A program made the translations under genes and the position numbers. The notes beneath the pieces are model-generated. The model had not been told where the DNA came from, did no database searches, and was given only the letters and a program-made list of their open reading frames with translations. A DNA stretch of 22,509 bases from a virus, in IMG/VR virus record IMGVR_UViG_3300043397_000004, positions 1-22,509 of that record; one strand, given 5' to 3'. This document shows positions 7,986-22,509 of this stretch, piece by piece (positions within the stretch are counted from its first letter, which is position 1; each line of letters starts with the position of its first letter).

Positions 7986-8409
7986 GATTCACGCCCCATG
8001 TTGTGTTTACTCGTTTCATTTGGTGTCTTTCAAAGTCTGCGTTCCCGTAGGTGCTGAAATAGAAATCAGACACCTTTTCCTCATCCACCCATTGTCTCGC
8101 AATTTTGAAATATTCACGCAACAATTCAACTTTCACCCTATCGTTCTTTCCATGCCACATGGCCTCTTGAAGGGTGAATACATTGGGAATCCATAGGCAT
8201 GGCGCTTTGATAGCCACAAGAAGACCAGTCAAATCTTCATCTACAAGCACAAATCCCCTGCCTGCATAAATCTGAGCTAGAACCATGTCAATGTGCTCCA
8301 TTGACCATTTGCTCATATCTGAGGACAAAGGATGCTGGTAGGCTGTATGGAAGTGAACCAGCAGCTCTTTTATTTTGTCATTGTCGTGTGGGTTAGCGAA
8401 TCGAATCAT
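7978..8409 (-). CDS. GNAT-fold acetyltransferase-like protein in tail-tip cluster
   Basis: This 143-aa protein has the overall GNAT layout: beta-1/helix-1 MIRFANPHDNDKIKELLVHF, a strand pair GFVLVDEDLTGLLVAIKAP, a helix-rich middle (KVELLREYFKIARQWVDEE), and a C-terminal strand DFYFSTYGNADFERHQMKRV. The acetyl-CoA pyrophosphate loop, normally R/Q-x-x-G-x-G/A, is degenerate (HGKNDR), so catalysis is doubtful. It fills the position where lambda-type phages have an NlpC/P60 (gpK) gene, and overlaps both neighbours (TGATG at its start, 8 bp with the tip protein). Similar GNAT-like proteins occur in other phage tail clusters, where their role is not settled. It could be a structural component or modify a tip protein. 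Confidence 0.7.
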   Translation of the reverse strand: MIRFANPHDNDKIKELLVHFHTAYQHPLSSDMSKWSMEHIDMVLAQIYAGRGFVLVDEDLTGLLVAIKAPCLWIPNVFTLQEAMWHGKNDRVKVELLREYFKIARQWVDEEKVSDFYFSTYGNADFERHQMKRVNTTWGVNHG

Positions 8410-9014
8410 CAGCTATTTGGACTTGCGCCCTTACCAAATGGATAGTTGATAGATTCTAAGTACGGCACACGGGCCATGCTTGTGTCGCCAGTATTGAAGA
8501 ACTGCCATGAGTTGTCATTGGTAAATCGTCCAGCCGTTCTGTTTTGCAAGATGAGCTGAATTGATGATGCGCTAACGGTAATCACACCAAGATAAGTCTT
8601 ATGGTCTTCATCCCATGTCTCACCAATGTGAAAACTGGTCACGTTACCAGTAAAGAACTTGTAGAGGCCGCCTGTGCCGCCAGATGTCAAAAGCTCGTTA
8701 TCCGTATTGAAGAAACCATGCCACATCTCAATTTTGGAGCCTTTGATGTTCTGACCCAAAACCCAACCTAATAAGGCTGTATCAATACCCACCAAAGTCA
8801 CCGTAGTCTCATTGGCTGTACTCTTAATGTCACGGGTAGCGTCACCAATGCTCACAAGCTGGCTGAGGCCGTCAAACGGCTGAGAGTCAACCGCAGATAC
8901 CGTAATCGCATAAGGAGCCGTAGAAAAGCGATATACGCCAGATGCCGTGGTCACACGGACAAACTCGGCATGACGAATATTTGTCGTTCCATCAACAGGC
9001 GTAATCACGTTCAT
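8409..9014 (-). CDS. tail tip/hub protein, gpL-position (BR0599/DUF2163-like)
   Basis: This 201-aa protein lies between the distal-tail gene and the GNAT-like gene, where lambda has gpL. It has a beta-rich layout with VTLVGIDTALLGWVLGQNIK, a mid segment YKFFTGNVTSFHIG, and the pattern NRTAGRFTNDNSWQFFNTGD followed by a hydrophobic residue, which resembles the C-terminal motif of phage tail-hub proteins of the BR0599/DUF2163 type. No cysteines are seen, so the iron-sulphur cluster known for lambda gpL has no visible ligands here. It starts with ATGA overlapping the upstream stop and ends in TGATG overlapping the next start. The assignment is by position and motif resemblance. Confidence 0.6.
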   Translation of the reverse strand: MNVITPVDGTTNIRHAEFVRVTTASGVYRFSTAPYAITVSAVDSQPFDGLSQLVSIGDATRDIKSTANETTVTLVGIDTALLGWVLGQNIKGSKIEMWHGFFNTDNELLTSGGTGGLYKFFTGNVTSFHIGETWDEDHKTYLGVITVSASSIQLILQNRTAGRFTNDNSWQFFNTGDTSMARVPYLESINYPFGKGASPNS

Positions 9015-9691
9015 AGTACGGACTCCATTGCCTTAAAGATTCCTGACCATTGAATGTAGGAGTCATTGGTCATTGGGATGAGCGTATAGGTTGGGTACTC
9101 GCGCAAAATGACGGGGAATGTCACGCCAGTGTACGAAGTGCCACCAAGACTTGTTGTATTACCAAACTCGCCAATTACAGCCGCCGTAGCCACCGTCACT
9201 GGCGTAATCAGTGAGCGATGAACTGGGATGTTCACCGTAGTGCCAGGGCCGCGCACAACATCAGCCGTGGCAATGTACGAATAACGACCAACTTGGCAAA
9301 AGTCGCCAGCTTTGACGATGTACTTTGTCGATGGCATCGTTGGAAGACTGCCAAGCACCAAGACCTTGTTGGCGCTTGATGTCTGCCAGCGGCAAGCTGT
9401 GATTTGAGCCTCTGTCATGTCACCTTGATACTGGATGTAGTTCACCCAACCAGTCGTAGAAAAATTCAAGAATTGCTCAAGTGATTTGTCAGGAATTCGC
9501 AAGCTATTCAACAATGCCCTGCTCTTGGAATAAAGCAGGTAATTCATTGGACGAAGCTCAAAGATAAACGGAACAACAGTCAGAACTTCCGAGGTTGTGA
9601 TTCTCTGATTTCGACTGATTGACTGACCAATGAATCGTTGGTCATTGATGCCAACAGATTCGCTGTTTTTCAGGATTTCGGTGAGAGCCAT
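9011..9691 (-). CDS. tail tip protein, distal tail (Dit/gpM-position), probable
   Basis: This 226-aa protein directly follows the tape measure, the usual position of distal-tail or gpM-like tip proteins that link the tube to the tip complex. It is strand-rich, with TTSEVLTVVPFIFELRPMNY near the N-terminus and a C-terminal YTGVTFPVILREYPTYTLIP that looks like a beta-sandwich end. A specific family was not recognised. The ATG at 9691 is chosen because GAGG lies 5 nt upstream and it begins just after the tape measure stop. The longer frame from 9742 overlaps the tape measure C-terminus without a better signal. It ends with an ATGA overlap into the next gene. Confidence 0.65.
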   Translation of the reverse strand: MALTEILKNSESVGINDQRFIGQSISRNQRITTSEVLTVVPFIFELRPMNYLLYSKSRALLNSLRIPDKSLEQFLNFSTTGWVNYIQYQGDMTEAQITACRWQTSSANKVLVLGSLPTMPSTKYIVKAGDFCQVGRYSYIATADVVRGPGTTVNIPVHRSLITPVTVATAAVIGEFGNTTSLGGTSYTGVTFPVILREYPTYTLIPMTNDSYIQWSGIFKAMESVL

Positions 9692-9693
9692 GA

Positions 9694-12066
9694 TTACCTC
9701 GAAGATGGAACAGAACGACCTGCGCTCTGGTTGGCTGACCACACAGCCATCTTGTTCTTAGCCAAGAATTGAGTAGCAGACTGTGTATCAATCGCGCTCA
9801 TGCTGGCAATGTATGGGCCATTGTATTGAATGGTTGTGCCAGTGTTCAAGCCGCTCAAATCTCCGCTGTTAGGAACAATTGTTCCTGCGCCTCTTGGCAC
9901 AAACAACTCAGGGCCATTCTCTCCAACAATTGATGCTTGACCAGCATTGAGCGGGCCTCCAACAGCACTAGCCATTGTGAATCCACTGGTGTTGATGTCC
10001 GATTCAAACTGACCTTTTAAACTTGGCATACCGGCAAAGATACTTCCAAGTCCAGAAGTCATCTTCAAAGCCATTGCGCGAATCTGAATGTTGATAAGCT
10101 CATTGATGATGCCAGTAGCGAAATCCTTGAATGACAACTTTCCTGTCTTTACAAAGTTCTGCAAGGCGGTGGTCATGTTTGAATAAACGGCTTGATTAAC
10201 CTCTTGAAGCATCTTCAATGTTTCAGCTTGCTTTGCAATTTCTTCGCGTGTTTTTTGCAATCCACGGAGTCTTTCTTGCTCTGCTTTTTTGCCATTTACA
10301 TCGGCATCAAGTTTCTTATTACGCTCGATTTCAGCAATCTCTTGCTCTGTCTTTAAGCGAGACATCGCAATTTCTAAATCTGTTGAAGAAGAAAATACAT
10401 TCTGTTTGTAGACCTGAAGTTTCTCACGCTCTTTTTCCAAAGCGTTTTCTTCAAGCATTGCTTTTTCTCTATAACGCAAAATCTCATCACGAGATAAATT
10501 TGCTTGCTCCAGAGCCAAATCAGCAGACTTGCGCTCTGCTTCTGCTTTAGCGTTATCTCGCAATACTCCAGCAATCTGAGGGTTGGCGGCAATCTTTCTG
10601 TCAAGCTCCATTTTGGCAATCTTTAATTCCATTGCCTTTTTGAGTTCTAACTGAGCAATCTTATCAACGCCTGCCGCTGCAATCGCGTATCTAGTTCTTT
10701 CTTTTTCTTCTTCCGTTTTTGCGGCCATGTCAATGACTTGCTGACCGTATTTACGTTGGAACTCTATTTTCTTTTCGTTGGCTTGGTCTTCGTTTGATTG
10801 ATTGGTGGCTTTCTCTGCGGCATCAGTAAACTTATTGAGCAAGTCAATATATTCCTGAGTAGCCTTTACAGCTTGCTGACTACCTTCTCCATAAGCAGCC
10901 TTCATTGCAGCAATGTGTTGCAATGAAATGTCCAACTGCATGGCGGCGCTAGGGCCGTTGCTTACAAACTGTTTGATTTTGTCGTAGTAGTCAGCAACAC
11001 TTGTTGCAACGTCTTTCCACAAAGAGGCAAGTGGGCCAAGAATGTTTTGCTGCTCTTTCAGCTTTGCATTGAAAGCATCGGCAGTGTATGTAATAGCCTC
11101 TTGGTGTTTTCCTTGCTTATCAAGGTTTTCAATCTGCTTGTACTGTTCAAGAGTCAAGAAATGATATTGACTATTCAGTTTGGCGGCAGAGCTTGCCGTT
11201 CCATCAAATGCTGGAATCAGTTTCTCGGCAACCGTTGATGCAGATTCGCCAGAGATTCTTGAGAATGAAGCAATGACTTGCGCTACGGAAGAAATTGATT
11301 TTTCAGCAAACTGACCAGACGCAACAAGCATCTGAATTGAATCCCTAGTCCCGCCAATGCTTTGATGATACTTTCCGCCAATCGACTCCGCAAGAGAGTT
11401 GAAGCTGCTCAAAGTCATTCCTGCGTAGTTGTTTGTCAATGCAAGAGCAGCATTAAACTTTTCAGCCTCTTTACTGCCTTGATAGAACGCAATACCAAGA
11501 CCAAGCACAGAAGCGCCAACAGCAGTTACGGCAACAGCAACTGGAGTAATGTAAGTAGCAAGGGCAGCAAACATTGGCTTCAAGCCGCCAAATTGGTCTT
11601 TTAACTGACCGCCCTGCTGCATTAAGACCATCAATGGATTTTGACCACCCATCAAACTGGTTACGGTATCAGTAGTTTGATACATGATGGCTTGACGTTG
11701 AAAGTTTGTTAAACCTTTTCCTGCTCCAGCCATTTCAGCTTGAGCTGCATTTTTAGCGGATAGGGCAACAGCGTCATAAGCTGCGGCAGTTCTTTTCAGA
11801 TTTGAAATGATGACATCTGGTTGATTCTTGTATTTACCAAGCTCAATCTGTTGATTGAGTTTTTCAACCTCCGTCAACGTCTTTCCGTAGTTTTTTGTAG
11901 CGTATTCAAGACGCACAATTTCTTTGGCGGCATCTTCTGCATCACGCTTGATTTGAGCCTTGAATGAGCCAAACTTCTTTTGGGCTTCCTCAATCTTGGA
12001 AACAAGTTCACCAGAATCAAGTCCGAGAACAATACCAAGCCTAGCAATGTTTTGTGATGCTGCCAT
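9694..12066 (-). CDS. tape measure protein (lambda type)
   Basis: This 790-aa protein sets tail length and is carried inside the tube. The N-terminus (IARLGIVLGLDSGELVSKI, then helices to about residue 110) resembles TMP_2-type tape measures. A hydrophobic segment spans roughly residues 163-195 (GLGIAFYQ at its end) and could insert into the host membrane on infection. Residues about 430-625 are a long charged coiled-coil. The lambda-like C-terminal domain follows (NMTTALQNFVKTGKLSFKDF, then GIINELINIQIRAMALKM), and then the conserved GENGPELFVPRGAGTIVPN (about 715-733). GGAAG lies 7 nt before the ATG. With the textbook figure of about 0.15 nm per residue the tail would be near 120 nm; this is an inference. 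Confidence 0.93.
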   Translation of the reverse strand: MAASQNIARLGIVLGLDSGELVSKIEEAQKKFGSFKAQIKRDAEDAAKEIVRLEYATKNYGKTLTEVEKLNQQIELGKYKNQPDVIISNLKRTAAAYDAVALSAKNAAQAEMAGAGKGLTNFQRQAIMYQTTDTVTSLMGGQNPLMVLMQQGGQLKDQFGGLKPMFAALATYITPVAVAVTAVGASVLGLGIAFYQGSKEAEKFNAALALTNNYAGMTLSSFNSLAESIGGKYHQSIGGTRDSIQMLVASGQFAEKSISSVAQVIASFSRISGESASTVAEKLIPAFDGTASSAAKLNSQYHFLTLEQYKQIENLDKQGKHQEAITYTADAFNAKLKEQQNILGPLASLWKDVATSVADYYDKIKQFVSNGPSAAMQLDISLQHIAAMKAAYGEGSQQAVKATQEYIDLLNKFTDAAEKATNQSNEDQANEKKIEFQRKYGQQVIDMAAKTEEEKERTRYAIAAAGVDKIAQLELKKAMELKIAKMELDRKIAANPQIAGVLRDNAKAEAERKSADLALEQANLSRDEILRYREKAMLEENALEKEREKLQVYKQNVFSSSTDLEIAMSRLKTEQEIAEIERNKKLDADVNGKKAEQERLRGLQKTREEIAKQAETLKMLQEVNQAVYSNMTTALQNFVKTGKLSFKDFATGIINELINIQIRAMALKMTSGLGSIFAGMPSLKGQFESDINTSGFTMASAVGGPLNAGQASIVGENGPELFVPRGAGTIVPNSGDLSGLNTGTTIQYNGPYIASMSAIDTQSATQFLAKNKMAVWSANQSAGRSVPSSR

Positions 12067-12067
12067 G

Positions 12068-12538
12068 TTAAATCTTCCGTTTGGCTAATTTTTGCGCTTG
12101 AGCAGGGATGCTCACAGCCAGTTCAGATTTTAGTATGTTGATGACATTATCGCGATTTCTTTCTAACGCAGTCCTCAAGAAAGGATGCTGCGGGGTTCTG
12201 GCATTCCCAAACTCTTGAGAAAGTGAAACGGCGCTCTTTTTTACAGATACAACACCGATAAAAAAGTCAGTAGGCGAAACAAATTCTGACTTTCTATCTG
12301 CGGAAGTTGGAATTCTTACATTGCTACGGATAGTGTCCTGCAAATGAATTGGGCCAGTATTCTTTTCATCACGAGGCGCATCAGCTATGGCGCTTGCCAA
12401 AACTGGCTCTAAAGCCTTTGCAACAGCTTTATTGACAGCGCCACGAACTGCCGTGTCAGCTCGGAAGTTGTTGGCAAGCTCAATGAGCTGTTGCTCAAGC
12501 TCCTCAAATCCTTCGGCTTTAAAGATTTCGACGGTCAT
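12068..12538 (-). CDS. HK97 gp10-like tail completion/neck protein
   Basis: This 156-aa protein has the signature of the HK97 gp10 family: an N-terminal FEELEQQLIELANNF helix, a helix of paired alanines (AVNKAVAKALEPVLASAI), a central beta region, and the hallmark EFGNARTPQHPFLRTALE (about 110-127), followed by a C-terminal amphipathic helix. gp10-type proteins join or complete the tail at the neck. Normally the gene sits before the tail terminator; here it lies after the chaperones and directly before the tape measure. It overlaps the upstream frame by ATGA, which supports coupling to G-T translation. The family call is fairly sure; the role in this phage is less so. Confidence 0.78.
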   Translation of the reverse strand: MTVEIFKAEGFEELEQQLIELANNFRADTAVRGAVNKAVAKALEPVLASAIADAPRDEKNTGPIHLQDTIRSNVRIPTSADRKSEFVSPTDFFIGVVSVKKSAVSLSQEFGNARTPQHPFLRTALERNRDNVINILKSELAVSIPAQAQKLAKRKI

Positions 12539-13352
12539 TTCATAGCCTCCGTCAACATTGCTGGAGCATTTGGAGCCATAGCCATAAACGACATCAATTT
12601 CTTGCTGTTGTCTGCGGCCTTCTGTTCATCCGTCAATGGAGGAATAATGTAATCATGCGTTGATGGCAAAACATGATTGATGGTAAACGGGGTAGCGCCC
12701 TGCTTCAACTTTGAATTCAAATTTCCAGTTGTAAGCGTACTCAAGGCAAGAAGTATGCCTTTGTTCCCTATTACGCCGTCACTGAACATGATTTCGATGT
12801 TTTGCATCTCATTCGCTGGTATGTTGTCGGGACAACCACCATGCGCCCAAACATAAGCTCGGGCCTGCTGACGGTTATCCCTTATGAGTTTTTTCGAGTG
12901 TCCTTGTAACCCGGCTGGATGGCTTCATTGATTTTGTCAATGATTTCCATCTGTACTGCCAACGGCCATTCTTCCTCAATCTCCTCGTAGGTGATGTCAT
13001 CAAGAGTTCCGCTAACAGGAATCAAAAGTCGGATGTACTCAACCACTCGCTGCTCCATCATTAGAACAGCTTTTGATAATTCAAAGGTAGATTTGCCGTC
13101 GATGATTACGTCAGTTTCTGTAATCTCTACGCCAATAGGAGGATTGGCGCGAAGCTCTTTTGTCATTAAGTCAAATTTAGCTTTTGCTTTGGCGTCATCA
13201 ACTTTTGTAATGCGCTCTTGCAAAGCCGTCATTTCGACAGTAAGAGGAATACGAACTTTGAATTCGTGTCCGCCAATTGAGAATGTCTTGGTACGGATTT
13301 GCGCGACTGCGCTCTCGTACTTCTTACCGAAGGCAGAGGATAACTTGCTCAT
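12535..13352 (-). CDS. tail assembly chaperone G-T fusion made by -1 frameshift
   Basis: Slippage at A AAA AAC (12894-12888) moves ribosomes into the -1 frame, which is open from there to 12535. The fusion would be about 272 aa: 155 residues of G, 27 linker residues decoded before the in-frame ATG at 12807, and 90 residues of the T part. The ATG at 12807 has no ribosome binding site, so the T part is probably made only as the fusion. This mirrors lambda gpGT, whose T domain recruits tube subunits to the tape measure. The offset between the two frames is 545 nt, equal to -1 modulo 3. The 3' end overlaps the next gene by ATGA. Confidence 0.9.
12882..13352 (-). CDS. tail assembly chaperone G (non-frameshifted product)
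   Basis: This 156-aa protein occupies the lambda gpG position between the tube and the tape measure. Tail chaperones of this class bind and solubilise the tape measure during tail assembly and are absent from the virion. The sequence is a beta-rich N-terminus (FSIGGHEFKVRIPLTVEMTA) followed by an acidic helical region with DITYEEIEEEWPLAVQMEII near the end. The ATG at 13352 has AGGA 7 nt upstream. The gene ends CGA AAA AAC TCA TAA: the slippery heptamer lies just before the stop and diverts some ribosomes into the next frame. Function rests on position and the frameshift signal more than on sequence identity. Confidence 0.85.
   Translation of the reverse strand: MSKLSSAFGKKYESAVAQIRTKTFSIGGHEFKVRIPLTVEMTALQERITKVDDAKAKAKFDLMTKELRANPPIGVEITETDVIIDGKSTFELSKAVLMMEQRVVEYIRLLIPVSGTLDDITYEEIEEEWPLAVQMEIIDKINEAIQPGYKDTRKNS
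12888..12894 (-). other. -1 programmed frameshift heptamer A AAA AAC
   Basis: On the minus strand the G frame reads CGA AAA AAC TCA TAA, so the heptamer A AAA AAC is in the X XXY YYZ register required for tandem tRNA slippage. It is two codons before the G stop. An inverted repeat CATAAG (12886-12881) / CTTATG (12857-12852) with a 23-nt loop starts one base downstream. It could act as a weak stimulator, although the usual spacer is 5-9 nt. Confidence 0.92.
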
Positions 13353-13360
13353 ATAGAGTC

Positions 13361-13588
13361 CTATCGTGTGGTTTTGATAATCTTGTGGTAGATGACTTCA
13401 TTCAGCTCAAGGGCGTATTCTGCCACTTGCTCTGGGGTCATTTTGTCGGCATGATGACGAGCAATGTCATGCGCCAAAGCAACCGCCGTCAAACGTTGCT
13501 GAGTAAACCCAAACCAGTCCTTGCGAGACTCGGCTTGGGTTACTAAGAAGTTCAACAGGTCGCTATTGTCTTTTACTGTAATTGTCAT
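13361..13588 (-). CDS. small protein between tail tube and chaperone genes, unknown
   Basis: This 75-aa protein is predicted to be mostly helical (DLLNFLVTQAESRKDWFGFT, then QQRLTAVALAHDIARHHAD and TPEQVAEYALELNEVIYH). I do not recognise a family. It starts 11 nt after the tube stop with no convincing ribosome site, so it is probably translated by coupling, and ends 8 nt before the chaperone start. Its place suggests an accessory tail-assembly factor. It is not the frameshift partner, because the slippery site lies in the next gene. Confidence 0.7.
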   Translation of the reverse strand: MTITVKDNSDLLNFLVTQAESRKDWFGFTQQRLTAVALAHDIARHHADKMTPEQVAEYALELNEVIYHKIIKTTR

Positions 13589-13599
13589 GTGATGTTGTA

Positions 13600-14124
13600 T
13601 TAAGCGTTGTTAGACCAGCCGTAGCTGTTGCCACCGACAGGGTGGATTGCGAATTGATACTTACCTTCGGCAGAGGGAGACATATCCCACTTCAAGCCAC
13701 CAATGCGGGCATTGAAGGCGTAAGCAACAGTGTCAGTGCCATCATAAACAGCAACAACAAAAGTACGGATGGTTGTGCCGTTGTAACCGTCTTCACGAAT
13801 CAACAACTGAGCAGGGTCAGCAGGGTTCCATGCAGATGTGACGTTCAAAGAAGTCACTTGGTTTTGAGTGGTAATTTTTGCACCAGTACGAGCACCAGCC
13901 ACAGAGTAAGCAGCCACGGCATCGTCAGAGCCAAATGCAGGCACAGCTTCCACGGGGATGAGGATGCCATCGCCACCAGTACCGCCAGCCTCAGTGCCGA
14001 TGATGCCAGCCACTTGAGCTGTCCATGTAGACAGTTGAGCGTCAGTCAATGGTGTTGGAGAAGCGCCGTCTTGCATCCACAATGTTGCGGTGTAACCGGG
14101 TAAGACTTTATCAATGAGAGCCAT
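13600..14124 (-). CDS. major tail tube protein
   Basis: This 174-aa protein follows the tail terminator and precedes the tail chaperones, the invariant position of the siphovirus tube subunit. It is Gly/Ala/Thr-rich and strand-dominated, with NQVTSLNVTSAWNPAD and IRTFVVAVYDGTDTVAYAFN forming likely tube strands, and begins MALIDKVLPGYTATLW. The start has a strong AAGGA 7 nt upstream, better than its neighbours, consistent with the high expression a tube protein needs. A gap of 35 bp precedes it, larger than most joints here. The function is inferred mainly from context; a family name is not claimed. Confidence 0.78.
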   Translation of the reverse strand: MALIDKVLPGYTATLWMQDGASPTPLTDAQLSTWTAQVAGIIGTEAGGTGGDGILIPVEAVPAFGSDDAVAAYSVAGARTGAKITTQNQVTSLNVTSAWNPADPAQLLIREDGYNGTTIRTFVVAVYDGTDTVAYAFNARIGGLKWDMSPSAEGKYQFAIHPVGGNSYGWSNNA

Positions 14125-14159
14125 TTTGATTTCCTTAGAAAAGAGTTGATGTAACTATC

Positions 14160-14579
14160 TTATGCTGGAACATCTATTGTGCAATCCAAAAAGATTTGCG
14201 CCAAATTCTGCTCGTTGTCATAGCTGTTGTATAGCCAAACCACATCAGCCTTCGCAATGAAGAACCCATCAGTCGGACTACCAAATTGACCACTATAACC
14301 GTGTAAGGATTGTAATACCTGATTGGAAATAGTGAAACCGTCTTCAATGTTTTGAGTGAAGATGGAAATCTGGAACACAGGACGGTCAATGCCCTTGTTG
14401 TTCTGTTGCTGGCCTGTGTAAACAGGCTGGTGGACATTGCGCAACTGCCATGTGATGAACTTTGGCTGTTTTGCAAAATTGCGGTTAAACGAAGCATATA
14501 CAGGCACAGGCGTAACAATGTTTGCCAGTTGATACTGGATTGCCTTGCCGTACAGGACTGGATTGAGTTGAGTCGTCAT
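14160..14579 (-). CDS. tail terminator / tail completion protein (probable)
   Basis: This 139-aa protein sits between the stopper and the tail tube genes, the usual site of the tail terminator (lambda gpU / DUF3168-like), which caps the tube and binds the head. The sequence has features of that class: TPVPVYASF near the N-terminus, FITWQLRNV, a QNNKGIDRPVFQISIFTQN strand pair, a helix with ISNQVLQSLHGYSG, and a C-terminal YNSYDNEQNLAQIFLDCTI strand. Start and stop of the two genes overlap as ATGA, indicating coupling. The assignment is mostly from context plus this strand-helix pattern. Confidence 0.68.
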   Translation of the reverse strand: MTTQLNPVLYGKAIQYQLANIVTPVPVYASFNRNFAKQPKFITWQLRNVHQPVYTGQQQNNKGIDRPVFQISIFTQNIEDGFTISNQVLQSLHGYSGQFGSPTDGFFIAKADVVWLYNSYDNEQNLAQIFLDCTIDVPA

Positions 14580-14920
14580 ACTGCCGTCACAGGGTCGTTG
14601 CGATAACAGAGAAGCATCACGGTCATGCGGTCGTTTGCTTCACGCACATCCGTAATACGCCAATCTTGGCCGCGCCAAGTGATTGAGAACAAGTCCTGCC
14701 CGTCCACGATTGCTTTGATGTTCGGCGTGTAGTTCAGAGTGAACTGAGTCAACTCTTGGTACAGGCGGTACTTGTCAGCAATCTTTAAGCTGTTCGCAAC
14801 ATCAGACACACGAGCGCGAGTATCAAACCATTTGGTCTGAGTGGTCGCACCTTCGCCAAAATCACTCTCAGAGAAAGTGAGGTTGTTGACTGCGATTTGC
14901 TCAAAACGTGCAATTGCCAT
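14576..14920 (-). CDS. head-tail joining / stopper protein
   Basis: This 114-aa protein resembles head closure proteins of the SPP1 gp16 / HK97 gp7 type (Phage_H_T_join class), which plug the connector and accept the tail. The visible pattern is a short N-terminal strand region, TKWFDTRARVSDV, then a central segment and the C-terminal IVDGQDLFSITWRGQDWRI with TDVREANDRMTVMLLCYR, typical of the family's beta-barrel. It starts directly after the connector stop and its end overlaps the next gene by ATGA. Position and length agree with the role. Confidence 0.75.
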   Translation of the reverse strand: MAIARFEQIAVNNLTFSESDFGEGATTQTKWFDTRARVSDVANSLKIADKYRLYQELTQFTLNYTPNIKAIVDGQDLFSITWRGQDWRITDVREANDRMTVMLLCYRNDPVTAV

Positions 14921-15592
14921 TTACATCACCAATGGTTTGTAAGGGCGCAAGAGAGCCTGAACACCCCAAGGAATGTTGTGCTGGATTGGGCCAGTTGTAT
15001 CGCTACGATTGTTATAGAGGTGAGTCAACAACAGCAAACCAGCCTGTTTGATTACGGGATAAGCCGCCAAGGGGTTTGCTGCTGTTGTGTACTCGCAAAT
15101 CACAGGAGCAGTCATTGAGCTGTTCATGTTCGTTGGCAAGTTTGCCACGACAACCTTGTTTCCAGACGGGTCGTAGTAATACTCAGTGACATCTACCGTG
15201 ATTAACTCAGGCGGGTTATTGTCATTCCAGTATCGAACTGCGTCCACAGAAACGCCAGAAAGAATTGGGTCTTGATTCTGGCTTACTTCTGGCAAATCCA
15301 ACGCCAAAGGAGTTCCGTACAAACTTGCAGTGTTGTACCAAACGCGATATGACGTTGGGAAGATTGACATACCAAGGAAGTCCTCGATAGTCATGCGAAC
15401 AGCCAACTCAAGTCCAGATAGGTAAGTGTCTTGGCTTTCGTCACCAAACAGGTTTAACTGATTGGTGATTTCATCCAGAGTCAACCAAGCGGTAGCAATG
15501 TCACGGCTGATTTGCTCTGTCTTTGTATAGTTGAACGGATTGCGCGTTGGCACACCGTAATTCAAGTAACCGAGTTGTGAATCAGCAGCCAT
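14921..15592 (-). CDS. head-tail connector (gp6-like adaptor)
   Basis: This 223-aa protein probably forms the ring that extends the portal after packaging (HK97 gp6 / SPP1 gp15 class). The diagnostic part is the helical segment WLTLDEITNQLNLFGDESQD followed by TYLSGLELAVRMTIEDFLGM (about residues 37-77 of the chosen start), which matches the usual connector pattern of a short LTLDE helix, an acidic loop and a long helix. The C-terminal helix AAYPVIKQAGLLLLTHLYNN fits the same fold, with a beta-rich insertion between. The ATG at 15592 has AAGG 7 nt upstream and starts 13 nt after the previous stop; the longer frame overlaps the capsid paralogue with no better signal. Next come the stopper and terminator genes, as expected. 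Confidence 0.82.
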   Translation of the reverse strand: MAADSQLGYLNYGVPTRNPFNYTKTEQISRDIATAWLTLDEITNQLNLFGDESQDTYLSGLELAVRMTIEDFLGMSIFPTSYRVWYNTASLYGTPLALDLPEVSQNQDPILSGVSVDAVRYWNDNNPPELITVDVTEYYYDPSGNKVVVANLPTNMNSSMTAPVICEYTTAANPLAAYPVIKQAGLLLLTHLYNNRSDTTGPIQHNIPWGVQALLRPYKPLVM

Positions 15593-15605
15593 TTTATACC
15601 CTTGA

Positions 15606-16628
15606 TTAGATACCATCAATCGACAAACGCACACCAGCAAATGGGTCGCGCACTGACGATACCACACGCTTTTCAGCGTAGATGGTTACAAAGCCGGGCT
15701 TAGTTTGCTCAAACATTTGAATGGTCATCTGTTCTTCATCAGCAATGGTCAAAAAGCGATTCCAATTTGCCAAGTAGATTGGGAAATCACCAGACAAATA
15801 TGGGTTAGGAACCACAGGGAAACCAAAGATACGACCAACAGAAGCGCCGTCAGAATCGCCGACCTCTAAGAACAAAGGCAAGCCTTGTGTATCTTTCAGT
15901 TCACGCAAAGACAAAATCATTTCAGGGCGAATATGCCATGCCGTACCATCCAAAGACCAGTATTGGGCTGGAAGGGTAGAGGCCATTGAAACAATTGCAT
16001 CATAGTTAACGGGGTCACCATTCAATGGCACTGTTGCAATTTCATGCAAGCCATTGGTGATTGATGTGCCGCTTGTGCCGTATGAGCTGACTGCTCCCAC
16101 AGGGTAGCTATCAAGTCCGCGCAAACCGTTTGTTGCGCCAGTGGAAGTTGTAGAAGAACCGTCTTGGTCATTATTGATGACCATAGATTGGCCTTCCAAT
16201 TGAGCAAACTCAAGGGCTAAGTCTTCAACAATAGTTGACTCAAGAGCATTTACATCCGACAGAACCGCTGTACGGATTGGCAATTGAGCGGAGAGTACGC
16301 GAACAGGCAATTGCCAAATGGTCGTATCGACATCTGGAGAACCGCTGTTCGGAGTGAATGAGTAACCCCAAGGGTCGGTTGAATCTGCTGCGTTACCAGT
16401 CTTGGCAACCAGCATGAGGTCGGAGCCGTCGATAGGAATCTGACGAGAACCTTGACGTAATGGGTTTGCTTGACGCAAAGCGGCAAACGCATCGTCGAAT
16501 ACAACATTACCACCAACACCCGAACCAGAACCAGTGATTCCAGAGGCTTCTTTCAGGTCAATGGTGACTTTGCCACCTTCGGTAATGGCTTGCTTAATGC
16601 CGTTCAGGATTTTTTCGGTGATAGTCAT
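15606..16628 (-). CDS. second HK97-fold capsid paralogue lacking the delta domain
   Basis: This 340-aa protein is clearly homologous to the preceding major capsid protein. In the 38-residue block beginning LKEAS, about 23 positions are identical. TAVL/TAAL, the NNDQ..S motif, NGLRGL(D/N), the PAQYW/PQQYW segment, and the EKR...SVRDPFA C-terminus also match. Before LKEAS it has only about 24 residues instead of about 104, so the long scaffold arm is absent. The ATG at 16628 is chosen because GGAA lies 6 nt upstream and it falls after the terminator; the longer frame opens with TTG and reads through the terminator hairpin. It could be a vertex (penton) protein, an alternative shell subunit or an inactive duplicate. 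Capsid-fold homology is sure; the role is inferred. Confidence 0.9.
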   Translation of the reverse strand: MTITEKILNGIKQAITEGGKVTIDLKEASGITGSGSGVGGNVVFDDAFAALRQANPLRQGSRQIPIDGSDLMLVAKTGNAADSTDPWGYSFTPNSGSPDVDTTIWQLPVRVLSAQLPIRTAVLSDVNALESTIVEDLALEFAQLEGQSMVINNDQDGSSTTSTGATNGLRGLDSYPVGAVSSYGTSGTSITNGLHEIATVPLNGDPVNYDAIVSMASTLPAQYWSLDGTAWHIRPEMILSLRELKDTQGLPLFLEVGDSDGASVGRIFGFPVVPNPYLSGDFPIYLANWNRFLTIADEEQMTIQMFEQTKPGFVTIYAEKRVVSSVRDPFAGVRLSIDGI

Positions 16629-16647
16629 AGTTATTCCAATGAGAGTT

Positions 16648-16674
16648 AAAAAGATGGGAGCCGAAGCCCCCATC
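16648..16674 (-). terminator. intrinsic terminator after the major capsid gene
   Basis: On the minus strand GATGGGGGC (16674-16666) pairs with GCTCCCATC (16661-16653) across a TTCG tetraloop, giving a 9-bp stem with one G-T wobble, followed by TTTTT (16652-16648). This is a textbook Rho-independent terminator with an extra-stable UUCG loop. It lies 11 nt after the capsid stop and 19 nt before the start of the second capsid-like gene, inside an otherwise continuous same-strand gene cluster. Confidence 0.9.
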
Positions 16675-16685
16675 CAAGGCAACTA

Positions 16686-18029
16686 TCAGGTTGCAGTGCC
16701 AGTCGAGCGATAACGCACGATTGCGAACGGGTCGCGCACCGATGTAGCCAAACGCTTCTCACCGAAGAAGGTGATGTAGCCGGGGGCTGTTTGGTCGTAA
16801 CGACGCATGACCATGTTCAAACGGTCAATGATGGTGTGGCCGCGTGACCAGTCACCGAAGTACATTGGGTACAAGCTGGTTGTGCCAGCAGAGCCAGTTG
16901 TAGCTTGCGATGGGTTGTCCAAATACTTGTTAACCACAACGTCGAAGCCCAACAAGCGACCAACGATGCCGTTTGTTTCCAGAGGAGACATACGTTCGAA
17001 CACAGGAGTGCCGTTGCTGTCTGTCAGACCACGGATTTGAGCCAACAAAACAGGGCTGACGATGAACTTTGCAGATTCAGTCCAGTATTGTTGTGGCAAG
17101 GCGTAGATGAAGTTCACAACGTCTTTGTAGGTGATGTTTGCAGCACCGACAGTGTTCACGTTGGAAGTCAACTGGTCATAGGTAGCCAAGCTGTGCAAGC
17201 CGCTTGTAGAACCAGTACCGCTTGTGCCGAAGGCAGCAGTAGAAGTTGTACCACCAGCATAAGTTGCATTAGCACCAGCATATTGGTTCAAACCGCGCAG
17301 ACCGTTAGAGCCACCGTATGGCAAGCTGGTAGAGCCTTGGTCGTTGTTTTGAATCATTGACAGAGCTTCGGCTTGTGCGAATTCAGCCAACATATCGTCA
17401 ACCACGTTTGCTTCCAAACCGTCGATGTCGTCAAGAGCAGCAGTACGGATAGGGAACTGCACGTTCAAGTCTTGCAAAACCAATTGCCAGATTGAAGTGT
17501 TTTCAGTTGTTGCCGCGCCGTTGTTCTGGATTGCGTAGCCCCATGCAGCACCAGCATTGCCAGTCTTCACACGGAACTGATAGCTAGAACCATCAGTAGC
17601 CACAGTGCGAGACACGCCGCGCATTGGGTTAGCCAAACGCAGAGCAGCAAACACAGGGTCATAAGCAGTACGACCGCCTTTACCATCACCACCGCCTGTC
17701 AGAGCCGAGGCTTCTTTCAGGTACGCTTCCATTTGAGATTCATCTGCAAAAACTTGCAATTGCTTCTCAAGGGTGTTTTTGCCTTCGGCGATTGCTTTGA
17801 GCTGCTCTTTGACAGAACGGTTCACATCTTGGCGAACGCTCTTAGCTTTTTCTTTGTGAACTGCGGCAGCAGGAATAGCGGCAACTTTTGCTTCCAAAGA
17901 TGCAACCATTTCGCTAAACTCGGCTTTAACAGCTTCGATAGCAGCAGGGATTTGGGCTTCAACAGCCACGATGCTCTCAGCTTGTTTAGCTTCGATAGCA
18001 TCCAATTTGTCGATGATTTCTTTTGACAT
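16686..18029 (-). CDS. major capsid protein, HK97 fold, with delta scaffold domain
   Basis: This 447-aa protein is the principal shell subunit. Residues 1 to about 105 form a charged, Ala/Glu/Lys-rich, coiled-coil-prone segment (KLDAIEAKQAESIVAVEAQI, later KSVRQDVNRSVKEQLKAI) typical of the HK97 delta domain, which scaffolds assembly and is then removed. The mature part probably starts near LKEASALTGGGDGKGG (from about 104) and runs through the conserved FAALRLANPMRG, IWQLVLQDLNVQFPIRTA, NGLRGLNQY and EKRLATSVRDPFAIVRY blocks to the C-terminus. It lies 2 nt after the protease stop. An intrinsic terminator begins 11 nt after its stop codon, so it is probably the last gene on the most abundant transcripts. 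Confidence 0.95.
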   Translation of the reverse strand: MSKEIIDKLDAIEAKQAESIVAVEAQIPAAIEAVKAEFSEMVASLEAKVAAIPAAAVHKEKAKSVRQDVNRSVKEQLKAIAEGKNTLEKQLQVFADESQMEAYLKEASALTGGGDGKGGRTAYDPVFAALRLANPMRGVSRTVATDGSSYQFRVKTGNAGAAWGYAIQNNGAATTENTSIWQLVLQDLNVQFPIRTAALDDIDGLEANVVDDMLAEFAQAEALSMIQNNDQGSTSLPYGGSNGLRGLNQYAGANATYAGGTTSTAAFGTSGTGSTSGLHSLATYDQLTSNVNTVGAANITYKDVVNFIYALPQQYWTESAKFIVSPVLLAQIRGLTDSNGTPVFERMSPLETNGIVGRLLGFDVVVNKYLDNPSQATTGSAGTTSLYPMYFGDWSRGHTIIDRLNMVMRRYDQTAPGYITFFGEKRLATSVRDPFAIVRYRSTGTAT

Positions 18030-18031
18030 GA

Positions 18032-18835
18032 TTAACCTTTTAGGCGTTTGTCGAGGAGTTTAAGAAGTTCACGTTGCTCAAGAGCAGCGAGAATTTCCAC
18101 GTTGGTCGCTTCCGCATCAGAATCGCTCTGAGTCGTCGCATTTTCAGTTGGCTCTTGGGCAACATCACGCTGCTCAATCACTTTCTTGAAGGTAGATGCG
18201 GCAGCGACCGCATCTTTCTTGGATAGACCAGCATCACGCAGGGCTTGTTCCAAAACTTTCAGGTCAGCAGTGCCATCAGCTCGGAAATACTCCAGCTTTT
18301 GCACTTCTGCCATTGGATTGTTTGGGTACATCACAACCGACACTTCACGCAATCCACCTTTGGTGATTTGGAAGTAGCCGTCTTCGTATGGGTCATCGGA
18401 ACCGACGGTCATTGGAGTACCGTCTTCTTTTGTCCACTGATATTCTTCGGCGTATGCACCAACAGACACGCCACCAAACATATTTGGCGACTCGCTCATC
18501 ACTTGATACAAATCAGAACCTTGAGTGGTGTTTACATACAAACGACCGCAGGCTTTCATGCCAGTTTCATCAAACTCAAACGATGTCCACTCACCCACAG
18601 GAATGGAATCAGCATCATGGTTCACGAACATTGGGAGAGGACGGCCAGCTTTGCTGAACGCTTCTGCCCATTGCATAAACGCCTCGGGTTGATAGTTGAA
18701 CTTGCGGCCATCAGCGCCTTCGCGTGGCCCCCAAGTTGTGACAACGGCTTCAATATTGCCTGTTGGCTCTGCGTTGTCTGTTTTTTCGAGTACCAGTTTG
18801 GCCTCGCACACCATCATCAAATTCTTTTGCGTCAT
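18032..18835 (-). CDS. prohead maturation protease, HK97 family (U35/S78)
   Basis: This serine protease is packed inside the prohead and removes capsid scaffold (delta) domains before DNA packaging. The 267-aa protein has the family pattern: a His motif FVNHDADSIPVGEW with candidate catalytic H73, a Ser motif FGGVSVGAY with candidate S124, and the conserved LREVSVVMYPNNPMAEV segment (about 162-178). The tail from about residue 190 is charged and probably a self-cleaved, capsid-binding region. The ATG at 18835 has GAGG 6 nt upstream. It lies directly before the capsid gene, as in HK97. Its natural substrate is the first capsid protein, which has a delta domain; the downstream paralogue largely lacks one. 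Confidence 0.93.
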   Translation of the reverse strand: MTQKNLMMVCEAKLVLEKTDNAEPTGNIEAVVTTWGPREGADGRKFNYQPEAFMQWAEAFSKAGRPLPMFVNHDADSIPVGEWTSFEFDETGMKACGRLYVNTTQGSDLYQVMSESPNMFGGVSVGAYAEEYQWTKEDGTPMTVGSDDPYEDGYFQITKGGLREVSVVMYPNNPMAEVQKLEYFRADGTADLKVLEQALRDAGLSKKDAVAAASTFKKVIEQRDVAQEPTENATTQSDSDAEATNVEILAALEQRELLKLLDKRLKG

Positions 18836-18968
18836 GGATTACCTCATCGACTTTGGATAAATCAATGTCGTGTATTATTTTTGGTGGTCTGCCGCGCTTT
18901 GGGGACGGCGGAACAGTTGGCCTATTTGCTACCAACGATGCTACCATAATCTTAAAAATCAACGACAT
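18750..18968 (-). CDS. small AT-hook-like ORF between portal and protease (uncertain)
   Basis: This 72-aa ORF begins with ATG immediately after the portal stop (TAAATG) and overlaps the protease gene by 86 bp in another frame. I do not recognise a family. Its first 45 or so residues fill the 133-bp portal-protease gap and include a basic AT-hook-like KRGRPPK followed by DIDLSKVDEVIHD. That is reminiscent of the GRPKK...AIDEL tail of the small terminase in this window. No strong ribosome site precedes it, so expression would depend on coupling to portal translation. It could be a real DNA-binding peptide, a decayed remnant of a DNA-binding gene, or chance. The second half may only mirror protease coding sequence. 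Confidence 0.4.
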   Translation of the reverse strand: MSLIFKIMVASLVANRPTVPPSPKRGRPPKIIHDIDLSKVDEVIHDAKEFDDGVRGQTGTRKNRQRRANRQY

Positions 18969-20366
18969 TTATTTGCCGATGTTCATTTTGCTCTTTTGGT
19001 TGCCGCCACCGCCACCAGTATCTTGAGGGCTTGAGCCTGCAATTGGGTCGGTTGGTTTTGTGTCTTGCTTTAACTCATTACCGCCTTCCATTTGAGCCTT
19101 GCCCAAATATTCACGCGCTTCGTTTGGAGTCAAGATGCCAGCGTCAACACCAGCTTTCACATAATTCATTTGATCGAGTGGAGCGCCCTTCAAGAAGTTC
19201 GCGGTATCGAATTGAATGCTCAGTGATGGGTAGCCATTAAACAATTGCTGTTTCAATTTGTCCTGCACGTTCACGATGGTTGGGTACATCGTTGATTTAT
19301 AGAACTCATCGAGCAATGTCTGAGTGTTGTTGTACTTTTGGTCTTGAATGCCAATCATTGCAGGAGGCACACCAAACAAACCACAAATACGCTTCATGGT
19401 CTGAATCTTCAATTCAGCAGCTTGGGTGTCTTGCAAAGTAAGGATGTCCAAAGGCGTGTATTTCATGCCTTGGTCGAGCAACATACCTTGGCCGGGCTTT
19501 GACTCATCAGTGCGCTGGCTACCAGTCATACTTGACCAAGCCTCTTTCAGACGCGAAGCCAGTTCTTTGTACTTTCCATCAGGGATGACCTGCTCAGTCG
19601 TGAACATACCAGTTGGCTTTGCGCCATTTAGCATGATGAAGTTGGCGTAAACATCAATATCTTGGTCGAGCGTCACCAATTCAGCAGCCAAGATACCTTT
19701 GTTGAAACCAGCCGAACCTTGCCATGCGGCCTCTTTAACGTGCATCACTTGATGGGCCATCAAAGGCTCATCTTTGCTAAAACCGTATGAAGGGGTAGAC
19801 AAACGGTATGAAGGATAACGAGCAGGGTTGATAGTTACGGCAATCAACGTCGAATCCAAAACATACATCTCCATTGGAGTCTGCGATGGGTTCTTTTGGT
19901 CTTCGCGCCACCAGAGGGTAAACGCCTCGCCAGACAATTCCAACCACATGAGCCACTGATACCAAAACTCATATTTTGATTGGAAGTTGTTTGGGTTATT
20001 CAGGAGCTTTGCAACTTGCTTGGCTTTATTCTTATCCCGAACGCCAACAGACTTGTCTTTCACAGCGTCGAGATATGAGCCATCCTCTTGCTCTGACATT
20101 ACCTTGATTGGCAACTGAGCCAATGCACGAGCCTTTGCACCAACGCAAGCCATGACTGTGCTGTTGCGCGTCAACAAGCTCATGTCGATGACGCGACCAG
20201 CAGTATTCGTGCTGGAAGTCGTTACATACAAGACTTGAGTATTGACTGTGGGGCGCGTATTGCTACCCGAATAAACAATGTTGTTACCTAGAGCCGTTTG
20301 GCCGAAAAGGTTGTTGCTTTCGTCCGATTGCGTGGACTTACGTTTGAAAATGTCAAGAATAGCCAT
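18969..20366 (-). CDS. portal protein, HK97 family
   Basis: The dodecameric portal forms the DNA channel at one capsid vertex, docks the terminase and nucleates head assembly. The 465-aa product has the HK97-portal pattern: N-terminal MAILDIFKRK, the conserved block STVMACVGAKARALAQLPIK, and a later RICGLFGVPPAMIG segment followed by NTQTLLDEFYKSTMYP. The C-terminus is low-complexity (GSSPQDTGGGGGNQ). The ATG at 20366 is chosen because AGGAG lies 5 nt upstream; the longer frame begins with a GTG at 20396 without a better ribosome site. It follows the large terminase, the standard order. Its TAA stop directly abuts the ATG of a small ORF. Confidence 0.96.
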   Translation of the reverse strand: MAILDIFKRKSTQSDESNNLFGQTALGNNIVYSGSNTRPTVNTQVLYVTTSSTNTAGRVIDMSLLTRNSTVMACVGAKARALAQLPIKVMSEQEDGSYLDAVKDKSVGVRDKNKAKQVAKLLNNPNNFQSKYEFWYQWLMWLELSGEAFTLWWREDQKNPSQTPMEMYVLDSTLIAVTINPARYPSYRLSTPSYGFSKDEPLMAHQVMHVKEAAWQGSAGFNKGILAAELVTLDQDIDVYANFIMLNGAKPTGMFTTEQVIPDGKYKELASRLKEAWSSMTGSQRTDESKPGQGMLLDQGMKYTPLDILTLQDTQAAELKIQTMKRICGLFGVPPAMIGIQDQKYNNTQTLLDEFYKSTMYPTIVNVQDKLKQQLFNGYPSLSIQFDTANFLKGAPLDQMNYVKAGVDAGILTPNEAREYLGKAQMEGGNELKQDTKPTDPIAGSSPQDTGGGGGNQKSKMNIGK

Positions 20367-20396
20367 ATCGACTCCTAGTTTCCGTGATGTTATCAC

Positions 20397-22070
20397 TCAA
20401 AATAATCGTAGTCCATAGGAGTCTGAAACGAATACGTTATCCAAATGGCAGTGCAAAGCCATAATCATTGCGATTATTCCGTCAACCTTGGCGGACGGGT
20501 CGGCTTCGTTTTTTCTCACTTTTACGTTGCCGTTTACGTCCGTATAGACCTCGCAGTTGCCCAATTGCCATCCCACAAACGGATTTCCGTCATGTTTTAT
20601 AGCCTTCTTGAGAATTAACTGCTCTGCCGTTTTCGACGGGTTGGATAGCACTGCCATACCTTGTCCAACCTTTTTGACTGGAAGGCCATAGGAAAACAGG
20701 TTGGCAACCAAAGCAGCAGCGTTGTAAGGGTCATAACCAATTTCTTTGACTTCATATATCTCAGCCTCTTGTCGAATATAGGATTCAATCTCATTCAAGT
20801 CTGTCACGTTTCCGGGCGTTAGATGCAAGATGCCAGATGCAACAGCCTGACTGAAAATTGACTTGTAATGGTTCGGAATCAGCTCAATCGACTCCTCTGG
20901 CAAGAAGAATTTGAACTTAGCGTACAGGTCTTCCTCGTCATATCGGTGAAGCGTCACCACGGCATTCAAATCTCGACTGTGAGCCAAGTCAAATCCAATG
21001 AATGTGGCCTCTGGCTTATCAACAGGCATTTCAGCCACGGACTCATCCCAATATCGACGGTCAACCCATGCGGCATTAGAGCTGACATAGATATTGAGCT
21101 GTTTACACAAGAATTCATTAAGCGACGCAGGTTTGCTCTTAGCCTCATCCGCCATGTGTTGAATGGCCTCGGTTGTGACCGACACGCCAAGCATAGGGTT
21201 AGCCTTACCCCACACAGCAGGGTCAGACCACTCATCGCCGGGGTCTACGGAATACAGCAGGCCAAACCAACGGAATGAATCTTCCGCCGCTCCGCGCAGC
21301 ACAGCCCGAAAATGGTTCAAGTCCTCATAGAATTTTGTCTCTTTGGTGAAGCTGGCGGTCGTCAGGTACATCCTTAAAGGATTCTTACGAGCAGCCATAC
21401 CTGAGTGCAACACTTCGATTGAGCCGCGCTCGGTAATCTGAGCTGCTTCGTCAATCATCGCGCACGATGGGTTCTTACCGTCACCAGTCTTACGGTTTTC
21501 ACGCGACAGAGCGCGGTAGGTAGATGTGGAATCACCAGCCTTTTTCAGCTCACCTCGAAACGGAATGAATCGGCTTTGCAACTCAGGAACCATACTTTCC
21601 ATGATGGCCTTGGATGAGTCAAAGCAGATTGACGCCTGTTCACGGTTTGTCGCCAAGGTGAACACTTCGGGGCCAGCCTCGCCAAACAGCAGCTCGTACA
21701 AAGCAATGATGGATGCAAGGGTTGTCTTGCCAGACTTTCGAGGCACGAACAAGATAACGTCTGTCACCCATCGAATGCTATGGTCTTTCTTGTTTCGGAA
21801 ACCATACACAGCCGCAAGGAATAGAACCTGAAATCCCTCAAGCTCAATCGACTTGCCTGCGTCCGGCCCTTTTACATGGCGACAGAACTTAGCAAATTTT
21901 AGGATGTGTTCAGCTTTGGCGGGGACGAACTCGTATGGCGCATCTTTGCGCTCAACCATGTCCAAGAATCGCTGGCAAGCAATTTTTACATCCTCACACG
22001 CAATCTTATCGCCACGAACAATGGCAGTTGCGTACTTGAATGCAGGCTCAAGCAGTGTTGAATAGCTCAT
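20397..22070 (-). CDS. terL: terminase large subunit (ATPase/nuclease)
   Basis: This is the packaging motor: it cuts concatemeric DNA and pumps it through the portal using ATP. The 557-aa length is usual for the Terminase_1/HK97-type family. The N-terminal ATPase shows Walker A PRKSGKTT (about residues 110-117), Walker B CAMIDEAA (203-210, with D207 and E208) and a coupling motif MYLTTAS (about 234-240). The C-terminal RNase H-like nuclease starts at FIGFDLAHSRD with D361 as the first metal ligand; GYDPYNAAA and the aspartate in KVDGIIAMIMAL are candidates for the others. It overlaps the small terminase and ends just before the portal gene. All motor and nuclease motifs look intact. Confidence 0.97.
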   Translation of the reverse strand: MSYSTLLEPAFKYATAIVRGDKIACEDVKIACQRFLDMVERKDAPYEFVPAKAEHILKFAKFCRHVKGPDAGKSIELEGFQVLFLAAVYGFRNKKDHSIRWVTDVILFVPRKSGKTTLASIIALYELLFGEAGPEVFTLATNREQASICFDSSKAIMESMVPELQSRFIPFRGELKKAGDSTSTYRALSRENRKTGDGKNPSCAMIDEAAQITERGSIEVLHSGMAARKNPLRMYLTTASFTKETKFYEDLNHFRAVLRGAAEDSFRWFGLLYSVDPGDEWSDPAVWGKANPMLGVSVTTEAIQHMADEAKSKPASLNEFLCKQLNIYVSSNAAWVDRRYWDESVAEMPVDKPEATFIGFDLAHSRDLNAVVTLHRYDEEDLYAKFKFFLPEESIELIPNHYKSIFSQAVASGILHLTPGNVTDLNEIESYIRQEAEIYEVKEIGYDPYNAAALVANLFSYGLPVKKVGQGMAVLSNPSKTAEQLILKKAIKHDGNPFVGWQLGNCEVYTDVNGNVKVRKNEADPSAKVDGIIAMIMALHCHLDNVFVSDSYGLRLF

Positions 22071-22419
22071 CTATGGCAGTAGGTGTGGATGTCTTCTTGG
22101 GCCGACCACGGGCCACAAGCGCAAGCTCGGCCAGAATCTTCACAGCTTTGTCGAGACATTCGGTTCTTATCTTGTAATAGGGAGAAGTGGCAGGGCCGGA
22201 GTTGTAATGCTCAATCATTCCTTGGGTCTGGATGATTCTTTGAGCATCAATCAAACTTTGCATAGTCATCACCAACATACCAACCAATGTTTCATCACTC
22301 GCAGTCAGAGCGCCTGTGGAGCTTTCCACTTCGCTACGAATTTGAGTCTCAAATGCAATCGCATCCCATGTATCTGGTTCGCGAATGTAATTGATGATGT
22401 GTTTGGGTGCTTTTTTCAT
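22048..22419 (-). CDS. terS: terminase small subunit (P27-like)
   Basis: This is probably the DNA-recognition subunit of the packaging motor: it binds the packaging site and loads the large subunit. The call rests on size (123 aa), the helical pattern, its place directly before the large terminase, and a resemblance to P27-type small terminases (helical N-terminal part, then a conserved segment around YYKIRTECLDKAVKILAEL). The C-terminus carries a basic AT-hook-like ARGRPKK followed by AIDELF. The ATG at 22419 is chosen because AGGGA sits 7 nt upstream; the longer reading frame opens only with TTG at 22443. The 3' end overlaps the large terminase by 23 bp, so the two are translationally coupled. 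Family assignment is by eye and moderately sure; the role is surer than the family. Confidence 0.8.
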   Translation of the reverse strand: MKKAPKHIINYIREPDTWDAIAFETQIRSEVESSTGALTASDETLVGMLVMTMQSLIDAQRIIQTQGMIEHYNSGPATSPYYKIRTECLDKAVKILAELALVARGRPKKTSTPTAIDELFNTA

Positions 22420-22509
22420 TGGGATTTCCCTAAATGCTGTCAAGTAGTATACCTTACTCCCCCCTCTGACTTACTATCTCTACGAAATTACCCCCGCGCC
22501 TGCTCCGCA
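22420..22509 (-). other. region upstream of terminase, unresolved
   Basis: These 90 bp before the small terminase hold two runs of G on the minus strand (5 and 6 bases) in a GC-richer stretch than the flanking genes, a -10-like TATACT near 22451-22446, and the ribosome site. A TTGACA box at 22443 lies too close to the start to drive it. A packaging site (cos/pac) often lies here, but no defining motif is visible. Confidence 0.3.

Follow-up and report, generated by a model that had tools for sequence, protein, structure and literature searches.

A conserved terminator-like hairpin between two paralogous capsid genes in relatives of the lake phage P19250A

Results

Two HK97-type capsid genes flank a hairpin in the late gene cluster

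The window analyzed here, meaning the whole stretch of DNA at its full length, is a 22,509-base IMG/VR virus record, probably a fragment. The minus strand carries the late genes, which comprise the terminase large subunit, portal, S78 prohead protease, MCP1, MCP2, connector and tail genes. The features around the capsid gene junction are as follows.

18938–18946, minus strand: candidate extended -10 promoter element TGNTAGCAT, upstream of the protease and MCP1 genes, from recurrence in relatives
18032–18835, minus strand: prohead protease gene (S78), upstream of MCP1 (Pfam PF04586, 2.4e-10)
16686–18029, minus strand: MCP1, the main capsid gene, 447 aa (Pfam Phage_capsid, PF05065, E 1.4e-29)
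16652–16675, minus strand: terminator hairpin, 10 pairs with a C(UUCG)G loop, from fold, scan and conservation in relatives
16648–16652, minus strand: U-tract of five T, from the sequence; the first T doubles as the tenth (G-U) pair
16629–16647, minus strand: 19-nt leader from the U-tract to the MCP2 start, with no promoter-like site
15606–16628, minus strand: MCP2, the paralogous capsid gene, 340 aa (Pfam Phage_capsid, PF05065, E 1.2e-24)

MCP1 and MCP2 are both HK97-type capsid genes by Pfam, and their products are 41% identical over MCP1 residues 104–444, starting at MCP2 residue 25. MCP1 consists of an N-terminal helical part of ~105 aa followed by the HK97 domain, and a predicted model of modest confidence (mean pLDDT 68) places helices at residues 2–51, 65–81 and 97–107. 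MCP2 lacks this long helical part; its predicted model (pLDDT 75) has one 15-residue helix ahead of the capsid domain and an HK97 fold, for which the RcGTA capsid (6tb9, E 1.6e-18) is the top Foldseek match. MCP2 is in these respects of the gp24 type: it has the HK97 fold, is a paralogue of the main capsid protein and is shorter than it at the N-terminus. The analogy with the shorter N-terminus of T4 gp24 suggests that it may have a vertex role. We infer that MCP1 is the more abundant capsid protein. A fibre-like reading frame at the distal end of the late cluster (1423–2748, minus strand) carries a long Gly-rich collagen-like repeat (GFSGYSG).

The junction hairpin has the anatomy of an intrinsic terminator

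The MCP1 stop codon occupies 16688–16686 and the hairpin stem begins 11 nt beyond it. Read on the minus strand, 16675–16652 is GGATGGGGGC-TTCG-GCTCCCATCT, followed by TTTT, with the whole element extending over 16675–16648 (MFE −17.1 kcal/mol). An earlier note on this DNA had given the position, the UUCG loop, the T-run and the spacings, all of which we confirm on re-reading the sequence; the nine base pairs that it assigned to the stem are also present, but the stem has 10 pairs, the tenth being a G-U pair (6 G-C and 2 G-U in all, around a loop of 4 nt). On the transcribed strand, five consecutive T (16652–16648) immediately follow the stem, and the opposite strand has no T-tract, so that the hairpin is one-directional. 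The element thus combines the G+C-rich stem, short loop and 3' U-tract of an intrinsic terminator with a position directly behind the major capsid gene, within a same-strand late cluster.

We compared this hairpin with the rest of the window in several ways. The fold of a 76-nt stretch containing it is 2.9 sd better than those of 200 dinucleotide shuffles, 2 of which are equal or better. On the late (minus) strand, a strict, bulge-free terminator detector returns the junction hairpin and nothing else; on the plus strand it returns three weaker sites (−12.0 to −12.5). Run on 20 order-1 Markov simulations of one strand, it gave 6 hits in total. A looser generic scan of 5000–22509 on both strands yields 24 candidates versus 18.1 expected, with the junction hairpin at the top of the list by G-C pairs.

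The hairpin is kept in relatives while its sequence changes

Relatives were collected by IMG/VR homology searches with MCP1, MCP2 and the MCP1 of Methylophilaceae phage P19250A (KX815270), the only named relative found (1 record of 50,697 per search). The locus lists (L003–L209) hold the best 80 of 116 matches, the best 80 of at least 596 and, for the third search, all 59. From 208 loci, 4 without MCP1 and 8 in which MCP1 runs to the contig end were left out; the 196 used reduce to 150 distinct contexts, merged only if ~450 nt around the MCP1 stop were identical, and all 150 belong to one phage group and are not independent samples. MCP2 is the next queried gene behind MCP1 in 148 contexts, the remaining 2 stopping at the contig edge. 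In 146 of these 148, 53 to 83 nt separate the two genes. The gaps in L099 (575 nt) and L101 (643 nt) are long because a homing-endonuclease-like gene sits between the terminator and MCP2 (L099 5704–6246 and L101 about 5926–6528; phrog_314, E 5e-15 and 1.6e-15; no match in a Pfam scan). Extra sequence is also seen in the portal-protease gap of L011 and L069 (~490 and 640 nt), by eye HNH- and GIY-YIG-like endonucleases.

The earlier note had proposed looking for the hairpin in relatives, and we find it there. The strict search, counted from −45 to +110 nt around the MCP1 stop, detects a terminator in 135 of the 150 contexts, as 54 distinct hairpins. A permissive search, which takes the best hairpin per context and whose count has no matched random control, gives a hairpin in 150/150 (MFE −15.2 to −22.4 kcal/mol), in 67 distinct forms, some differing only in stem extent, with 55 distinct cores. 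At least 5 T are present among the 9 nt behind the permissive stem in 132 contexts (median 6 T); fewer than 4 T follow the chosen stem in 10, partly because the search paired the T-tract into the stem (e.g., L008, L064, L104, L171, L201). By eye, the 15 contexts that miss the strict test still have a hairpin at the junction, with a bulge or inner loop (L086, L091, L095), a spacer, or a short or displaced T-tract (L070–L072, L185, L190 and several of the P19250A group); these 15 failures indicate that terminator strength varies.

The informative contrasts for conservation are a shuffle of the stem arms and the strict counts. Across 44 distinct bulge-free arm pairs, numbered from the loop outwards, 5 of 7 positions show all of G-C, C-G, A-T and T-A. 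When the 3' arms are reassigned at random, pairing drops from 100%, a value fixed by construction and lacking a matched random control, to a mean of 70%, with a maximum of 75% in 500 shuffles. Over 1.37 Mb of loci, the strict detector records 135 hits at the MCP1/MCP2 junction versus 70 elsewhere, 31 of the latter within five marked genes and at least 12 more within a small gene after the putative tail-tube gene. Both arms of the stem vary, as do the loops, and therefore shape and T-tract are kept and the letters are not. The conserved thing is the hairpin element and not the UUCG loop that the earlier note had emphasized: UUCG, with C-G, G-C or A-U closing pairs, occurs in 37 contexts, while 113 carry other loops, among them UACG, GCAA, GAAA and CGAAAA, and we reject the UUCG loop as a functional core. 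A chance hairpin has a negligible probability and is refuted: simulated sequence does yield ~0.3 strict hits per strand of window length, but the site is kept at the same junction in 150/150 contexts as its sequence changes. The note's identification of an intrinsic terminator is strongly supported by the location of the element, by its T-tract on one strand only and by its persistence through changes in both arms of the stem.

Many other strict hits appear to be coding

A second conserved terminator ~3.1–3.4 kb downstream, to which 21 strict hits in one distance bin had pointed, was considered and rejected. In P19250A, a strict hit within a gene on the same strand (9162–9196) is stronger than that at the junction (−17.2 versus −12.2 kcal/mol), and the hits of L156, L159, L161 and L169 in this bin share that coding hairpin. 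The 23 strict hits within the protease gene are likewise taken as coding.

Among 106 loci examined, 15 strict hits fall ≤150 nt behind the stop of a putative tail-tube gene, so named by position because the gene has no PHROG match. Twelve of these lie 53–80 nt past the stop, inside the small gene that comes next, and we regard them as coding; that of L067 falls by eye in an apparent second tail-tube copy, and those of L091 and L192 look like terminators. With L026, L064 and L184, added after inspecting five picked loci, there are five relatives in which a terminator follows the putative tail-tube gene, either directly or after one intervening small gene; the product of the tail-tube gene is presumably another high-copy one. 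Tandem copies of this gene occur in L067 and in L184 (about 8930–9958), where the pair is followed by the terminator.

Promoter-like signals around the capsid genes

A scan of 5000–22509 finds 15 promoter-like sites versus 21.6 expected by chance, and none in the gap before MCP2. As 19 nt between hairpin and MCP2 are too short for a -35/-10 pair, the earlier note was right that a full promoter has no room before the MCP2 ATG at 16628. We looked for synonymous-site constraint in MCP1 and MCP2 as a sign of an internal promoter and found none marked; the lowest 12-codon windows of MCP1 and MCP2 fall ~3.1 and 2.6 sd below the mean, respectively, which we judged informally to be within the range of several hundred windows, and an internal promoter on these grounds was rejected.

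Upstream of the protease, TGNTAGCAT is unique in the window and is found in the portal-protease interval of 84 of 119 contexts, namely 84/90 with the window-type protease and 0/29 with the P19250A type; elsewhere it occurs 6 times in 1.19 Mb of late strand. Its codons are invariant (GTA in 39/39 where valine and GCA in 64/64 where alanine, among 66 distinct sequences). This element could possibly be a late promoter for the protease and MCP1, and we treat it as a lead only because it is absent from the 29 P19250A-type contexts and from 6/90 others and has no clear -35 box. If real, it would make protease and MCP1 a promoter-to-terminator cassette, comparable to that described for the LUZ100 capsid gene in the portion of the report available (PMC10134795). 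A small ORF overlapping the protease start (18753–18968, minus strand) is conserved in 104 loci (66 distinct sequences) and has no match in Pfam and PHROG scans.

Discussion

A probable leaky terminator behind MCP1

We consider it likely that the hairpin is a leaky intrinsic terminator, ending many late transcripts after MCP1 and letting a fraction reach MCP2, the connector and the tail genes by read-through. This is the simplest reading because the polarity is correct, the other strand has no T-tract, and neither room nor signal for a promoter exists before MCP2; the U-tract of the window, with five T only, counts against this reading, as do the 15 contexts missed by the strict search, the 10 with fewer than 4 T behind the stem and the stronger in-gene hit of P19250A. 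Antitermination or a non-consensus promoter could supply the downstream genes instead. The hairpin would act as a Rho-independent terminator, probably for host RNA polymerase. Late transcription would pass through the protease and MCP1, many polymerases would halt in the U-tract just behind MCP1, and those remaining would continue into MCP2, connector and tail genes, giving a high level of MCP1 mRNA, which the hairpin perhaps also protects at the 3' end; transcripts for head-completion and tail parts, which are lower-copy, would be scarcer. Termination in the cell, read-through feeding the downstream genes, and stoichiometry as the purpose are what we infer from this arrangement.

The earlier note had the downstream genes expressed by partial read-through or antitermination, with a low stoichiometry of the second capsid protein, which would follow if transcript levels fall in this way. 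Read-through is plausible, given a gap with no promoter-like site and such sites not above chance; the antitermination alternative, in which a phage factor or RNA confers resistance late by a Q-, N- or put-like process and the terminator is a time switch instead of a fixed divider, we consider unlikely. Antiterminated operons can accommodate a terminator inside a single late strand, and the five relatives with a second terminator downstream fit such a scheme. However, an Rfam search of the window and P19250A returns no match, and a scan that covered 21 of the 58 P19250A proteins found none matching an antitermination or RNA polymerase family; one scanned protein matched the transcriptional regulator phrog_858 and an endonuclease VII-like protein gave a weaker match to an anti-sigma family. 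It is quite unlikely that a separate promoter in or close to MCP2 serves the downstream genes, with the hairpin acting only as an insulator between two transcription units. The minus strand has two 9-of-12 promoter-like sites (16199–16170 inside MCP2 and 15619–15591 at the connector gene start) that would suit this arrangement, but neither could drive MCP2, sites of this kind are rarer than chance, and the capsid genes show no marked synonymous constraint.

A hairpin that mainly protects the capsid mRNA 3' end or marks a processing site, with little termination, seems very unlikely to us. A stem of 10 pairs is short for RNase III, and in most relatives the hairpin comes with a correctly oriented T-tract. 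Protection of the 3' end and termination are not exclusive, and the φX174 terminators, in the part of the report available, both end transcription and stabilize the upstream transcript (PMC3335065).

We argue that a transcript drop after MCP1 is itself under selection, since the hairpin is kept while its letters turn over, and the constant order MCP1-terminator-MCP2 makes it testable whether termination strength sets the ratio of the two proteins. In a more speculative extension, which we regard as rather unlikely, MCP1 with its long scaffold-like N-terminus would form hexamers, MCP2 would form vertices as gp24 does, and read-through would be tuned to set the hexamer:pentamer ratio. The geometry of a T=7 shell calls for 360 to 55, and with equal translation this would correspond to read-through of about one in six or seven; the stem would be free to change because only strength is selected.

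Comparison with known systems

P19250A has the same gene order, with MCP1 63% and MCP2 59% identical to those of the window and its second capsid gene annotated as a hypothetical protein. A hairpin with a T-rich tract lies between its MCP1 and MCP2 (6021–6038 onwards), weaker (−12.2 kcal/mol) and with another loop. Separately, the P19250A (L210) gene at 28452–29108 (minus strand), annotated as diguanylate cyclase/phosphodiesterase and situated near an ERF recombinase, matches the YqaJ viral recombinase domain (E 9.6e-20), which makes the cyclase label a likely mis-annotation. Among the papers searched, none combined phage, two capsid genes and terminator, and 'terminator' has 0 occurrences in the available main text of literature on or citing P19250A.

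MCP1/MCP2 and T4 gp23/gp24 both pair a main capsid protein with a paralogue that has a shorter N-terminal part or propeptide, at 41% identity for MCP1/MCP2 versus about 20% for gp23*/gp24*. The available part of one report describes gp23 and gp24 as capsid paralogues, probably from a gene duplication, with 65 versus 10 residues removed (PMC9958956). T4 mobE, according to the accessible sections of another, provides a leaky terminator between two genes of one enzyme, with ~30% termination and a promoter of its own for the gene behind (PMC2988022).

The likeness to T7 T-φ lies in its position immediately behind the major capsid gene (10), and we know of no paralogous capsid gene after the capsid gene of T7. 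T-φ acts on the phage's own RNA polymerase, whereas the P19250A scan found no polymerase among 21 of 58 proteins. Genes 11 and 12 are expressed only by read-through of T-φ, as given in the available part of the source (PMC5592923). In T7-like LUZ100, a terminator follows the capsid gene, which forms a promoter-to-terminator cassette; the promoter is phage-specific (phage polymerase), and the available excerpt of that report does not mention a second capsid gene (PMC10134795).

The leaky Rho-independent terminators of φX174, an unrelated ssDNA phage, resemble the proposed element in working with host polymerase. The accessible text describes TJ, TF, TG and TH as 'not stringent', with mRNA falling stepwise downstream, and gives TF behind gene F a weak hairpin score (PMC3335065), whereas the MCP1/MCP2 hairpin is stable. 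The mechanism of post-capsid termination is already known from a few model phages (T7, LUZ100, φX174); what is added here is that the element is conserved in a whole group of phages, most of them uncultured relatives of the lake phage P19250A, and that it sits between two capsid paralogues.
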